Positions 9,352 through 57,950 of a stretch of 64,000 nucleotides of DNA are shown one piece after another. This DNA is from an uncultured Clostridia bacterium (GTDB lineage Bacteria > Bacillota > Clostridia > Lachnospirales > Lachnospiraceae), in the NCBI GenBank assembly GCA_948467395.1, contig CAOKDX010000006.1, positions 62,001-126,000 of the forward strand, written 5' to 3'. A program made the position numbers and the translations under genes. The notes beneath the pieces were generated by a model that was not told where the DNA came from, made no database searches, and saw only the letters and a list, made by a program, of their open reading frames with translations. Position 1 is the first letter of the stretch, and the number at the start of each line of letters is the position of its first letter.

Positions 9352-9385
9352 CTCAACGGCGGGTTCAAATTCGCGCCGTTAAGCT
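9350..9385. repeat. Hairpin repeat at the AGCS stop codon (family with 50755-50786)
   Basis: Twelve-base arms AGCTCAACGGCG and CGCCGTTAAGCT pair at 11 of 12 positions around a loop that contains CAAATT. The left arm begins within the TAG stop of the symporter gene. There is no T-run, so it is not a classical terminator, though it lies between convergent genes. A similar unit (AGCTCAACG...CAAATTGG...CCGTTGAG) occurs at 50755-50786. Confidence 0.6.
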
Positions 9386-54504: not shown

Positions 54505-56538
54505 CTATTTAATAGAGTAAGCAGCCACGCTAACTGCCAATGTTGGACTGATCGATTTCATATAATCTTCAAAATAGTAGAGTTTAAAAATACTAGCATT
54601 ATATTTTACTCCAACATAAAAATCTGATGCAGTTCCTATTGAATCATTTGCGAAATGTTTGATTACATTAGCAGCGACTGATTGAGCAGCTATAAACCTT
54701 TCTTTAACAATATTTGACTTATCAGCATAATCATTTGGTGTCCCGTGAAACAGCCTTCCATATTTAGCAGTCCAAACAGAATGAGCATACACATCTGTAG
54801 CTGTATGCATTGCTACTCCATAAGCAAACGCGGCCCGATATTTCGTTGAACTCCCAATACTTCCCCAGGAAACATTGGCAAATAACTTTAAATAATCCTG
54901 TGATGGATTGTTCACATCGCATGGACCTGGATCATTGTATATTTTTCCTCCTCTTATTTCTTTTGCATATTTTGTACATGTAATATAATTACTCACATAA
55001 TTGCATCCCACTGTCCCTGCTGTCGTTTTAAAATAGCCATGCAGACAGGGATGCTTTGTCATTCCTGCCATTCCACTTGCCGCAGTATCTGGATATACCG
55101 CTCCCTTCTTTACCATAGAAATAACATTTGCGTTTATGGGATTTTGACTAATGTATCCATTTGCACTTAATGCACTATCAGCCAACGTTTCATGTGTTTT
55201 CCCGTCAGGATCCTCCTTTTTATTGCAATTCCAGGACCCATTCACATAATCCACATCTGTAAACTCCTGCACTGGGGCATTATTTTCTTCTGCCTTATTT
55301 TCATTCTGCTCTACTGTCTTCCAAGGTTGGTAGCTCTGTTCAAATTCATCATAAATATTCAATGCCTGCCCATAGTCCAACAGTCCATTTCCATATTTTT
55401 TCTCATCTCCATATTGATTTGCTGCCACATCCATAAGTTGACGGATAAAGTCCGCTGGTTTCGTCCGATCTTTTTCCCATAGTCTTGCCGCCACCCCAAC
55501 CACGTGCGGCACTGCCATACTAGTGCCATTGCAGACCAACGTACCACCAAAGCCCCCTGTTGTTCTTATCTTCTCAGCCGGCGCAACAATCTCCACCTCT
55601 TCCCCTTCCGCACTGTAATCGCAGGCAGTCCCGTCTATATCCGTTCCCCCTACTGCCATAACTTCATCCATTGCCGCCGGGTATTCTACCACTCCATGAT
55701 TCCCCGCCGCCGCCACTATCAGAATTCCTTTTTTATGAGCCGCTCTCACAGCCGTTTCCAGTGCCTCCGACCTCTCCATCGTGCCAAAACTAATACTAAT
55801 GATATTGACATCCTTTTCTATCGCCCAGTAGATTGCTTCCACAATCCGGCTCACCGGCGCCACCTTATTCCCATCCAAAACTCTTGCCGAATACAGTTCC
55901 ACATCCGGAGCGATTCCTGTGATCCCTTCCTCATTATCACGTGCGGCGATCACTCCGGCAATGGAGGTTCCATGACCGGATGTATCCCAGAACAACGGAA
56001 GCACTTCTTCCTCCCCAGGGATCAGATTGATAGATTCCTCCACCTCAATATCTTCAAATAAATCGACACCGGAATCGATCAGCGCAACCTTTACTCGGTT
56101 CCCTGTACAGGCTCCTTCTGCCCTGTCGCCCTCGTCCAGACGTATTGCCTGCATATTCCATTCCAGGTCCTCTTTTTCTTTTGATTCCACTTTCTCGGTT
56201 TCGACATCTTCAAAAGAACCTCGTACTTCAATATCTTTCTCGACGAGATCAATCTTTTGGTCCCGTTCCAATAACTCTGCCTCCCCTTCTGTCAGTTCCA
56301 GTGTGATAAAATTATCTTCCTGCATACTGTCACAGCTAAGTTCAGAAATGGTATCTCCTTCTTCATATTTTTCACCCAACGCCTCCCTTTTATTTCCCGC
56401 AGCCGTCTGTACAATATAGACTTGTTTCTTCTCCTGATCTTTTGCCCTTACACTGGTGTAACACATTCGATTCCCCAATCCCAGCACCAGTATGGCACAT
56501 AGTGAAGCAGCTATTGTTTTTTTACAACATCTTTTCAT
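54505..56538 (-). CDS. Subtilisin-like serine protease (S8) with unusual C-terminal domain
   Basis: A 677-residue exported protease. Signal peptide ~1-32 (TIAASLCAILVLGLGNRM). The catalytic triad is intact: Asp near residue 153 in VALIDSGVD, His near 192 in SGHGTSIAGV, and Ser near 341 in NGTSMAVPH. A prodomain-like segment (~35-130) precedes it. The C-terminal ~260 residues after a Glu/Asn-rich linker contain GVAMHTATDVYAHSVW near 575-590, an H-x3-D-x3-H pattern resembling the zinc phospholipase C/S1-P1 nuclease-like fold. There is also HFANDS and other conserved His/Asp. That fusion is unusual; function of the tail is unknown. The start uses GGAGGAT; ATG is preferred to a GTG two codons upstream. 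Confidence 0.87.
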   Translation of the reverse strand: MKRCCKKTIAASLCAILVLGLGNRMCYTSVRAKDQEKKQVYIVQTAAGNKREALGEKYEEGDTISELSCDSMQEDNFITLELTEGEAELLERDQKIDLVEKDIEVRGSFEDVETEKVESKEKEDLEWNMQAIRLDEGDRAEGACTGNRVKVALIDSGVDLFEDIEVEESINLIPGEEEVLPLFWDTSGHGTSIAGVIAARDNEEGITGIAPDVELYSARVLDGNKVAPVSRIVEAIYWAIEKDVNIISISFGTMERSEALETAVRAAHKKGILIVAAAGNHGVVEYPAAMDEVMAVGGTDIDGTACDYSAEGEEVEIVAPAEKIRTTGGFGGTLVCNGTSMAVPHVVGVAARLWEKDRTKPADFIRQLMDVAANQYGDEKKYGNGLLDYGQALNIYDEFEQSYQPWKTVEQNENKAEENNAPVQEFTDVDYVNGSWNCNKKEDPDGKTHETLADSALSANGYISQNPINANVISMVKKGAVYPDTAASGMAGMTKHPCLHGYFKTTAGTVGCNYVSNYITCTKYAKEIRGGKIYNDPGPCDVNNPSQDYLKLFANVSWGSIGSSTKYRAAFAYGVAMHTATDVYAHSVWTAKYGRLFHGTPNDYADKSNIVKERFIAAQSVAANVIKHFANDSIGTASDFYVGVKYNASIFKLYYFEDYMKSISPTLAVSVAAYSIK

Positions 56539-56654
56539 ACGCACATCCTCCTTATCAAGCTCAATTTATCCAAAACAACACGCCCTAACTCCTTTATATA
56601 TAAGATACACGAGAAGGTATTCTGATTCATAACAATTTAAAAATCTCTGTTTTT

Positions 56655-57125
56655 TTACAGCATCCTCTTTAGAATATCCCGCGCCCTGGAAAGTCTTGAC
56701 AAGATAGTCCCCTTAGGTTTATGGAGAAGTTCTGCCATTTCTTTTGTTGAATATCCCTGATAATAATATAGTATGATTACATCTCTTAAATCCTTTTCCA
56801 GGGAAGAAATGAGTTCCCGAAGCTCTATGTAGCCATTATTTACTGCTTCTATAAGCTCCCTTCCCTTGTAAGGATCATCGGCGGTAACGATCCTTTGATT
56901 CCTTCGCATCAACAGCTTGGTTTCATTTATAAGGATTTTTAAGAGCCAGGGTTTGAATTTATTCCTGTCCCGCAGCGTATCCCTATTCTGAAAAGCCCTG
57001 AGAATAGCATTTGCCACCGCATCCTCTGCATCATAATGATTCTTCAGGATACGATATGATACAGCATACATTTCAAGACCGCATTTAGAAAGCAGCTGCA
57101 CAAATACGTCTGTTTCCGTTTTCAA
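56655..57125 (-). CDS. ECF-type RNA polymerase sigma factor
   Basis: A 156-residue sigma-70 family protein with region 2 (YRILKNHYDAEDAVANAILR and FKPWLLKILINETKLLMRR) and region 4 (LEKDLRDVIILYYYQGYSTK then EMAELLHKPKGTILSRLSRA). No extra sensor domain is present. The start codon is TTG, fixed by GAGGAGGGGA. No anti-sigma gene is adjacent. It lies 116 bp upstream of the subtilase and LRR genes on the same strand and is a good candidate to direct them. Its leader carries a structured RNA and U-run at 57157-57223. Confidence 0.92.
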   Translation of the reverse strand: MKTETDVFVQLLSKCGLEMYAVSYRILKNHYDAEDAVANAILRAFQNRDTLRDRNKFKPWLLKILINETKLLMRRNQRIVTADDPYKGRELIEAVNNGYIELRELISSLEKDLRDVIILYYYQGYSTKEMAELLHKPKGTILSRLSRARDILKRML

Positions 57126-57156
57126 TCCCCTCCTCTGCCTGATTTATAAATTATGG

Positions 57157-57223
57157 AAAAACCCGGAACGCCAGTGGGGCGTGGAGTCCCCTGCTATGAG
57201 CGAAGCATTTCGGCGCCCCGGGT
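57157..57223 (-). ncRNA. Three-way-junction leader RNA with terminator-like U-run, upstream of the ECF sigma gene
   Basis: On the minus strand a 12-bp outer stem pairs ACCCGGGGCGCC with GGCGTTCCGGGT (two G-U pairs). Inside it are two hairpins: TGCT/AGCA with an 8-nt loop and GGGG/CCCC with an 8-nt loop, joined by GAAA and ACT linkers. TTTTT follows at once, 31 nt before the TTG start. On the plus strand the two wobble pairs become A-C mismatches, so the RNA is on the sigma-factor strand. It is GC-rich in an AT-rich gap. The shape suggests a riboswitch-like attenuator or a dispersed structured repeat; I cannot name the class. Confidence 0.55.
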
Positions 57224-57310
57224 AAATGGCATACCAACGCCATTCACTATTAAAGAACACCACTACACACCAAAACCCTACAAAAAATTTTTAAATTTTC
57301 TTGTTTTCGT

Positions 57311-57350
57311 TATTTTGCATAAAAATACGTCAACATTTTTATGCAAAATA
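57311..57350. promoter_or_regulatory. Perfect 16-bp inverted repeat
   Basis: TATTTTGCATAAAAAT and ATTTTTATGCAAAATA are exact reverse complements around an 8-bp spacer (ACGTCAAC). It lies between the sigma-factor leader and the terminator of the next upstream gene. A TTGACG box falls in the spacer on the minus strand. Probably an operator for a dimeric regulator; a structural role in RNA is also possible. Confidence 0.6.
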
Positions 57351-57353
57351 GAC

Positions 57354-57386
57354 AAAAGAAAAGCCCGGCTGAAAAGCGCGGGCTTT
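57354..57386 (-). terminator. Terminator downstream of the hypothetical membrane gene
   Basis: On the minus strand CGGGCTTT/AAAGCCCG arms (8 bp, 57360-57367 and 57379-57386) close an 11-nt loop and are followed by TTCTTTTG. It lies 33 bp after the stop of the gene at 57419-57892. Confidence 0.8.
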
Positions 57387-57418
57387 CAAAGGGTACTCCT
57401 TTATTCAATTTTACTACG

Positions 57419-57892
57419 TCAAAAATCTGTATTGATAATGGGCGAACCAAATAGGACATTTGTGACATCCCTTTTCTCATCATAGGACACTGCCACGTTC
57501 ATATTGATTCTTTTACCATTTATCGTTTTATATTTCTTAATGCCTGTTGTATAACCATAAGCGGTGTAGTAGTTTGCACTGAGCTGGGAATCCTGGGCCA
57601 TTACCTCACTCCCGCCCATGGTGCGGAACATGTCATGAGCCAGTCCCTTCATCTGTTCCTTAGTAAGCCTGCCCCTGACTGCTCCCTGAGTACAGGTGTT
57701 ACCCTCCTCAGCATTTCTCTTGTCCCCGTTCTGCCGCTCCGTCTGCTCCCGCAGTACGGTTACCTGATTCTTGGCAAAGGCCTGGGTAAAATCTGTATTT
57801 GAAACATATAACCTTGTGATTATAATCTGAACCAGCACGATCAGCCACAGCACTGCCGCAGCGAAAACCGCGATACGAAATTTTCTAAGCAT
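57419..57892 (-). CDS. Membrane-anchored hypothetical protein, possibly YwmB-like
   Basis: A 157-residue protein with one N-terminal membrane helix (IAVFAAAVLWLIVLVQIIIT) and an extracytoplasmic domain of about 130 residues. The C-terminus (TTGIKKYKTINGKRINMNVA, YDEKRDVTNVLFGSPIINTDF) resembles the end of YwmB-type proteins, but the full-length YwmB (~240 residues) is longer, so this is a weak match. AAGGAG lies 10 nt before the ATG. The gene is 58 bp past fabF on the same strand and is followed by its own terminator. Confidence 0.7.
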   Translation of the reverse strand: MLRKFRIAVFAAAVLWLIVLVQIIITRLYVSNTDFTQAFAKNQVTVLREQTERQNGDKRNAEEGNTCTQGAVRGRLTKEQMKGLAHDMFRTMGGSEVMAQDSQLSANYYTAYGYTTGIKKYKTINGKRINMNVAVSYDEKRDVTNVLFGSPIINTDF

Positions 57893-57950
57893 ATCCTGTC
57901 AACTCCTTACCGATGAATTGTTATATATAGGATATCCTCCTTGGAAAATT

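Follow-up and report, generated by a model that had tools for sequence, protein, structure and literature searches.

A folded leader RNA without a recognised class precedes an ECF sigma factor gene in two species of a Lachnospiraceae genus

The minus strand upstream of an ECF sigma factor gene encodes a genuine folded leader RNA that is conserved in a relative within the genus and belongs to no recognised class. The RNA consists of a 5′ hairpin (P0), an adjoining three-way junction (3WJ) in which a 12-bp outer stem (P1) surrounds two 4-bp hairpins (P2 and P3) with 8-nt loops, and a U-run; it is ordinary in kind and new as an individual family. Positions refer to the window, by which we mean the whole stretch of 64,000 nucleotides that was analysed. 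The window's own genome (2.99 Mb, 42 contigs) is designated G000, and G005 and G006 are relatives in the same genus. We tentatively propose that P0, the 3WJ and the U-run may together be a built-in, incomplete attenuator on autoregulation of the sigma factor, releasing an RNA of about 95 nt, a reading that is quite possible although we stop short of calling it probable. The computed basis of this proposal is the predicted fold and its strand, the single copy in the genome, the conservation in one relative, and the exact promoter copies that are confined to the sigma-bearing genomes of the genus.

Predicted structure of the leader

Folding of the minus strand at 57223–57157 recovered the 12-bp stem around two hairpins that the original prediction had described there from the letters (z −3.1 to −3.6). 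The minimum free energy (MFE) of the 3WJ, evaluated in 81 nt, was −33.9 kcal/mol (z −3.14), and 1 of 200 shuffled sequences folded as well. The 68-nt element with a second shuffle set gave a z of −3.57, and the 94 nt of P0 plus the 3WJ gave −3.79, with 0 of 500 shuffles as good in each case. The outer stem had 13 bp in the MFE structure of the window, the 13th pair being lost in G005, and no loop–loop pairing between P2 and P3 was evident by eye. The choice of strand, first argued from G-U pairs in the outer stem, held up: an RNA on the minus strand is favoured because z was lower on the minus than on the plus strand both in the window (−3.57 vs. −1.75) and in G005 (−2.69 vs. −0.09).

The outline of the element needed adjustment at both ends. 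The limits 57157 to 57223 fit the 3WJ, but the structure begins further 5′ with the conserved hairpin P0, which adjoins P1. A U-run was indeed found at the other end (5 U in the window vs. 6 in G005); it had been thought to begin directly after the stem, but its first U lies within the stem and closes P1. The 12-bp stem and the U5 or U6 are elements of an intrinsic terminator, but the stem encloses a junction, with P1 closing a branched part of 39 nt, and the 3WJ is therefore not a canonical terminator. A standard terminator scan of 56500–57950, limited to loops of 3–8 nt, listed none.

Table 1. Features of the sigma factor leader and of genes preceded by the same promoter-like box. Positions without a locus label are those of the window.
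Feature	Position	Strand	Basis
Promoter-like box TTTGTAGGG-WWWT-N10-GGTGTTCTT	57253–57284	−	Three of 39 genus genomes contain it exactly; putative −35/−10 role
Putative transcription start	~57250	−	
5′ hairpin P0, 9-bp form common to G005	57224–57245	−	Folding; adjoins junction
P1 outer stem, 5′ strand (12 bp)	57212–57223	−	Folding; alignment with G005
36-nt core (J1/2, P2, P3)	57176–57211	−	Identical in window and G005
Hairpin P2, UGCU-UCGCUCAU-AGCA	57192–57207	−	Folding; alignment
Hairpin P3, GGGG-ACUCCACG-CCCC	57176–57191	−	Folding; alignment
P1 outer stem, 3′ strand	57161–57172	−	Folding; alignment
U-run	57157–57161	−	Sequence; alignment with G005
Shine-Dalgarno region AGAGGAGGGG	57127–57136	−	Read from sequence
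ECF sigma factor gene (Sigma70_r2, Sigma70_r4_2)	56655–57125	−	Pfam; alignment
30-codon ORF over the element, stop codon excluded	57154–57243	−	Rival reading, not favoured
Box-preceded gene	L096:1624–2220		LytTR domain above cut-off
Box-preceded gene	L088:1594–2187		LytTR domain above cut-off
Box-preceded gene	L095:877–1521		LytTR domain above cut-off
Box-preceded gene	L097:1558–2286		LytTR domain above cut-off
Box-preceded gene	L101:2–511		Weak response-regulator match, below cut-off

Conservation in a relative

In comparison with G005, 62 of the 67–68 positions of the element were identical, as were 22 of the 23 positions of P0 (57246–57224). Identity was 33 of 40 in the promoter stretch (57286–57247), 33 of 50 in the stretch upstream of the promoter (57340–57291) and 22 of 31 in the spacer 3′ of the U-run. 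An insertion of 52 nt follows the U-run in G005, and therefore the spacer to the ribosome-binding site (RBS) varies while the element does not. Identity at the fourfold sites of the sigma gene (31 of 47) was below that of the element (Fisher p 0.0005). Its coding sequence as a whole nevertheless shows strong conservation too, with 398 of 471 positions identical.

It was found that 20 of 20 pairs were kept in both sequences. Three stem positions differ in G005, each pair being retained through G-U, and none of the 20 pairs was changed on both sides, so that there is no strict covariation. The compensatory changes named in the original prediction as its check were thus absent, although every stem difference in the sole homologue preserves its pair. 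Pair-keeping by itself is modest evidence, because 1262 of 20,000 random mutants with six substitutions (6%) likewise retained all pairs, and a shuffle control for pairing is uninformative on two sequences.

The six substitutions in the element all fall outside the 36-nt core (p 0.008 for all six missing it by chance, a post hoc value for a comparison chosen after seeing the data). This invariance would suit a switch, in which a small molecule or a protein bound by the core stabilises or breaks P1, and sigma synthesis follows the signal. Two further observations point the same way. In partial-transcript folds of the window P0 formed earliest and the full P1 formed once its 3′ strand had emerged, from 85 nt on, and at 73–79 nt the 5′ strand of P1 was paired instead with the 3′ strand of P3; in addition, the sequence GGCGTT occurs in both the 5′ arm of P0 and the 3′ arm of P1 in both species. 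However, the alternative pairing of P1 with P3 is not clearly conserved, because a G-to-A substitution at 57217 in G005 sets A opposite C and would weaken it, and no computed partial fold exchanged the GGCGTT copy of P0 for that of P1. Aptamer covariation across many species, by which a riboswitch is recognised, was not found, the element being present in two species and without an Rfam class, and the neighbouring genes suggest no ligand. The original interpretation is thus supported as regards a structured leader on the sigma strand, which is conserved in a relative. Its further step, to a riboswitch or protein-controlled attenuator, is backed neither by a clearly conserved alternative fold nor by pairs changed on both sides, and we consider a switch doubtful.

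The same conservation could also be that of codons, since an ORF of 30 codons beginning with ATG at 57243 runs across the element, and 29 codons of it align with G005 at 93% identity. Of the six substitutions in 87 aligned nt, five affect the third position of a codon and four are synonymous. Against a small protein gene, the reading frame was chosen after the fact, no Shine-Dalgarno sequence is visible, and the ATG lies about 10 nt or less from the putative transcription start. Furthermore, the frame ends at different places in the two species (30 codons vs. 77 in G005) and one change is L to Q. At E ≤ 1, matches in 14 of 39 genus genomes comprised the own genome, G005 and 12 genomes with a best E of at least 0.17; three weak loci were inspected and appeared chance-like, and there was no convincing relative beyond G005. 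A small protein gene is, in our judgement, very unlikely.

Occurrence of the element

A covariance model (R1) was built from two sequences, those of the own genome and G005. Both blastn and R1 found one copy in the own genome. Among 39 genus genomes R1 matched two, the own genome and G005, with scores near 100 bits in both. Among 397 family genomes (without G005, E 0.1) it gave five, the own copy and four at 23–27 bits that were taken as chance because their cores are poor or partly lost and three of them (L033, L035 and L036) overlap or adjoin long open frames. The fourth (L034) is intergenic and a less clear-cut case, but it lacks P2. In 391 class genomes (without G005, E 0.01) nothing was found beyond the own copy. 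With filters off, the best score at ten sigma loci (that of G006, L041, and nine more distant ones, out of 35 sigma-homologue loci fetched from other genomes) was 13.6 bits.

A pattern with the loops and GAAA fixed and the stems free was matched in the GTDB set (84,980 species, from which records of the own genome may be excluded) by one contig, CAJSYQ010000034.1, which is that of G005. The loop pattern found nothing in viral contigs, and blastn found nothing in plasmids and phages. As in the original prediction, no known class was recognised: Rfam 15 gave no matches at the gathering threshold in the whole window. At E up to 10, two of the 30 matches listed overlap the element, and neither comes near its threshold: ZEB2_AS1_3 on the element (11.2 bits vs. 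a threshold of 55, E 4.9) and sRNA162 at its edge on the plus strand (16.6 vs. 78, E 1.2). Judged by title, none of the papers listed in a literature search that leaves out most subscription papers concerns a junction leader of an ECF sigma gene.

The original prediction had also allowed for a dispersed structured repeat, which in mobile form might have landed in the leader. Such an arrival would fit the leader of G006, which has an intact promoter box but not the element. The searches speak otherwise: because the element is present in single copy in the genome and no Rfam threshold was reached, a dispersed repeat is not supported, and G005 likewise has one copy, with nothing beyond its contig in the GTDB, viral, plasmid and phage sets. 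We regard this explanation as extremely unlikely.

The sigma factor gene and its neighbourhood

The downstream protein (156 aa) contains Sigma70_r2 and Sigma70_r4_2 above the Pfam cut-off, as an ECF sigma factor does, and it also matched the sigma70-ECF superfamily model above cut-off; of the 25 families listed out of 66, none was an equivalog scoring above its cut-off. The gap of 31 nt that had been noted between the U-run and the gene is confirmed for the TTG start at 57125 in the ORF list. However, the start is uncertain because the TTG (57125–57123) is not conserved, the aligned codon being TAG in G005 and ATG in G006 (the latter aligned by eye). From this alignment, the true start may be codon 9, 24 nt further on, which is GTG in the window and ATG in G005.

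The sigma gene is followed by genes for a subtilase and then a leucine-rich-repeat protein. The subtilase (54505–56544) had in addition a weaker match to a zinc-dependent phospholipase C domain (27.3 bits vs. a cut-off of 26.8). ECF sigma genes are mostly restrained by anti-sigma proteins; no anti-sigma domain was found by Pfam in the five neighbouring proteins scanned. The preceding gene probably ends, upstream of the leader, in the stem AAAGCCCG/CGGGCTTT with TTCTTTT after it (about 57386–57360), which was seen by eye and is not in the terminator scan list.

The promoter-like box and a candidate regulon

The leader lies between a promoter-like box and the RBS, as originally proposed. The recurring stretch of the box, TTTGTAGGGTTTTGGTGTGTAGTGGTGTTCTT, was found exactly at nine sites in the 39 genus genomes, three in G000, two in G005, four in G006 and none in the other 36. 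With up to three mismatches, two more sites were found in G005 (two mismatches each) and one site in each of six other genomes (two to three mismatches). The reversed sequence, as control, gave 12 sites across the 39 genomes, and mismatched sites are therefore no better than background, except where there is a supportive neighbouring gene. A looser form of the box had nine sites in G000, G005 and G006 compared to two control sites. Among 397 family genomes, one site with at most two mismatches was found in each of three genomes besides the own one, and because this is below the seven control sites, nothing points to the box beyond the genus.

The distribution of the exact box is that of the sigma gene. 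Sigma orthologues in the genus are those of the own genome, G005 (84% identity) and G006 (57%, the gene being truncated where the contig ends). Beyond these, the closest homologue had 42% identity in the genus and 40% among 397 family genomes. The genomes with the exact box are therefore the genomes with a sigma orthologue (3 of 39 in each case). The coincidence of two sets of three among 39 genomes has a chance of 1 in 9139, an arithmetical and post hoc figure for which the identity cut was picked afterwards.

The box precedes the sigma gene in three species. It also precedes, in three species, a regulator with a LytTR domain above the Pfam cut-off (Table 1) and a separate structured RNA, for which the G005 box has two mismatches. 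In G005 a box with two mismatches precedes a LytTR protein that also matched a response-regulator domain below cut-off, and in G006 the box precedes a protein whose response-regulator match is weak and does not reach the cut-off (E 0.0046). Since LytTR-domain regulators and another structured RNA follow the box as well, autoregulation by the sigma factor is likely: it probably reads the TTTGTAGGG...GGTGTTCTT promoter and thus its own gene. Judged from these gene contents, the putative sigma regulon would be composed largely of regulators. The exact box confined to sigma-bearing genomes among the 39 of the genus, together with a second conserved RNA under a like box, defines a small, testable regulon.

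A candidate attenuator in the leader

In the attenuator model, the sigma factor would use the TTTGTAGGG...GGTGTTCTT promoter to transcribe its own gene, and the nascent transcript would fold into P0 and then into the adjoining 3WJ with its 12-bp P1 and U-run. P1 and the U-run would act as an incomplete intrinsic terminator, at which some transcripts would end near 57157 as a compact RNA. The remaining transcripts would read through into the sigma gene, and positive autoregulation would be damped. If true, such leader attenuation would be a brake different from anti-sigma proteins. In favour of this model, a stable fold followed by U5 or U6 is present in both species, partial transcripts are predicted to adopt the full P1 as soon as its 3′ strand is available, and exact promoter copies lie upstream of the sigma gene in all three sigma-bearing species. 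Against it, the element is known from two species, the branched stem is non-canonical, and G006 lacks the element.

The sigma leader of G006 retains the promoter and TAGTGAAT, which are followed by a short leader in which R1 with filters off found no 3WJ. The 3WJ was either gained towards G000 and G005 or lost in G006. Because G006 has the sigma gene and promoter without the 3WJ, the circuit in general does not require the element.

The released RNA might instead be the main product, and the sigma mRNA its read-through form. It would then be a small RNA under sigma control whose loops act in trans, for example by the CUCC of L3 binding Shine-Dalgarno sequences. The loops are invariant, and the other structured RNA that follows a like box in three species also has a terminator-like stem, both of which agree with this explanation. 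When duplexes were evaluated by a crude test that ignores internal folds, the element paired with three regulon leaders no better than shuffles, of which 21, 49 and 57 out of 60 were as good, and eight pairs between the other RNA and regulon leaders likewise did not exceed shuffles in this test. We consider a trans-acting function, including the example given, unlikely.

The leader could also be a passive 5′ stabiliser or insulator, which would cause no termination but would shield the mRNA against decay and leave the AU-rich RBS region accessible. P0 would start within a few nt of the putative transcription start, and none of the computed folds draws the RBS region into the junction, although it is weakly paired in the longest of them. 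This role would leave unexplained both the U-run directly after P1 in the two species and the invariant loops, and it seems distinctly unlikely.

Compared with known systems, the leader resembles intrinsic-terminator attenuators in having a structured region with a GC-rich stem and a U-run between promoter and RBS, but here the terminator-like stem closes a 3WJ, and no clearly conserved antiterminator was seen. It shares with purine-class 3WJ riboswitches a P1 around two hairpins in a leader, but it reaches no Rfam threshold, has 4-bp stems with 8-nt loops, and is not 5′ of a metabolic gene. Like ECF-sigma-driven small RNAs, such as the sigma-E RNAs of enterobacteria, it is a structured RNA directly after an ECF-type promoter, but it is within the sigma gene's own leader. 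It is conceivable, if improbable, that it represents a new class of leader RNA, with one stem serving both as terminator and as part of a 3WJ sensor. A core read by a ligand or an RNA-binding protein would then set the level of an autoregulated ECF sigma factor, and the terminated leader would be a second small RNA of the regulon.

Other structured sequences

The separate structured RNA (L105, about 122–141 nt) is located at G000:C20:40089–40210 (+), G005:C45:168–291 (+) and G006:C10:77956–78095 (−). It is stand-alone, has the core GGAATAAAA..GTACATC and ends in a terminator-like stem of its own. Of its 28 predicted pairs, four are changed on both sides, and two are each disrupted by a mismatch or gap in one of the sequences. 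Rfam gave no match for the copies of G000 and G006, and a covariance model of this RNA (R2) found the same 3 of 39 genomes plus a weak match in G025 (32 bits). In G000 and G006 the RNA is opposite a convergent gene, and the G000 gene facing it encodes a zf-HC2 (anti-sigma-like) domain and adjoins another ECF sigma gene.

A hairpin TAGCTCARCGGCGG..TTYAAATTGGCG.. is located 3′ of the sigma gene in G005 (L003) and 5′ of the promoter in G006 (L041). A near match with one mismatch is present in the window at 9357–9375, where 14 of 100 shuffles matched at three or fewer mismatches; this hairpin is possibly a dispersed repeat.
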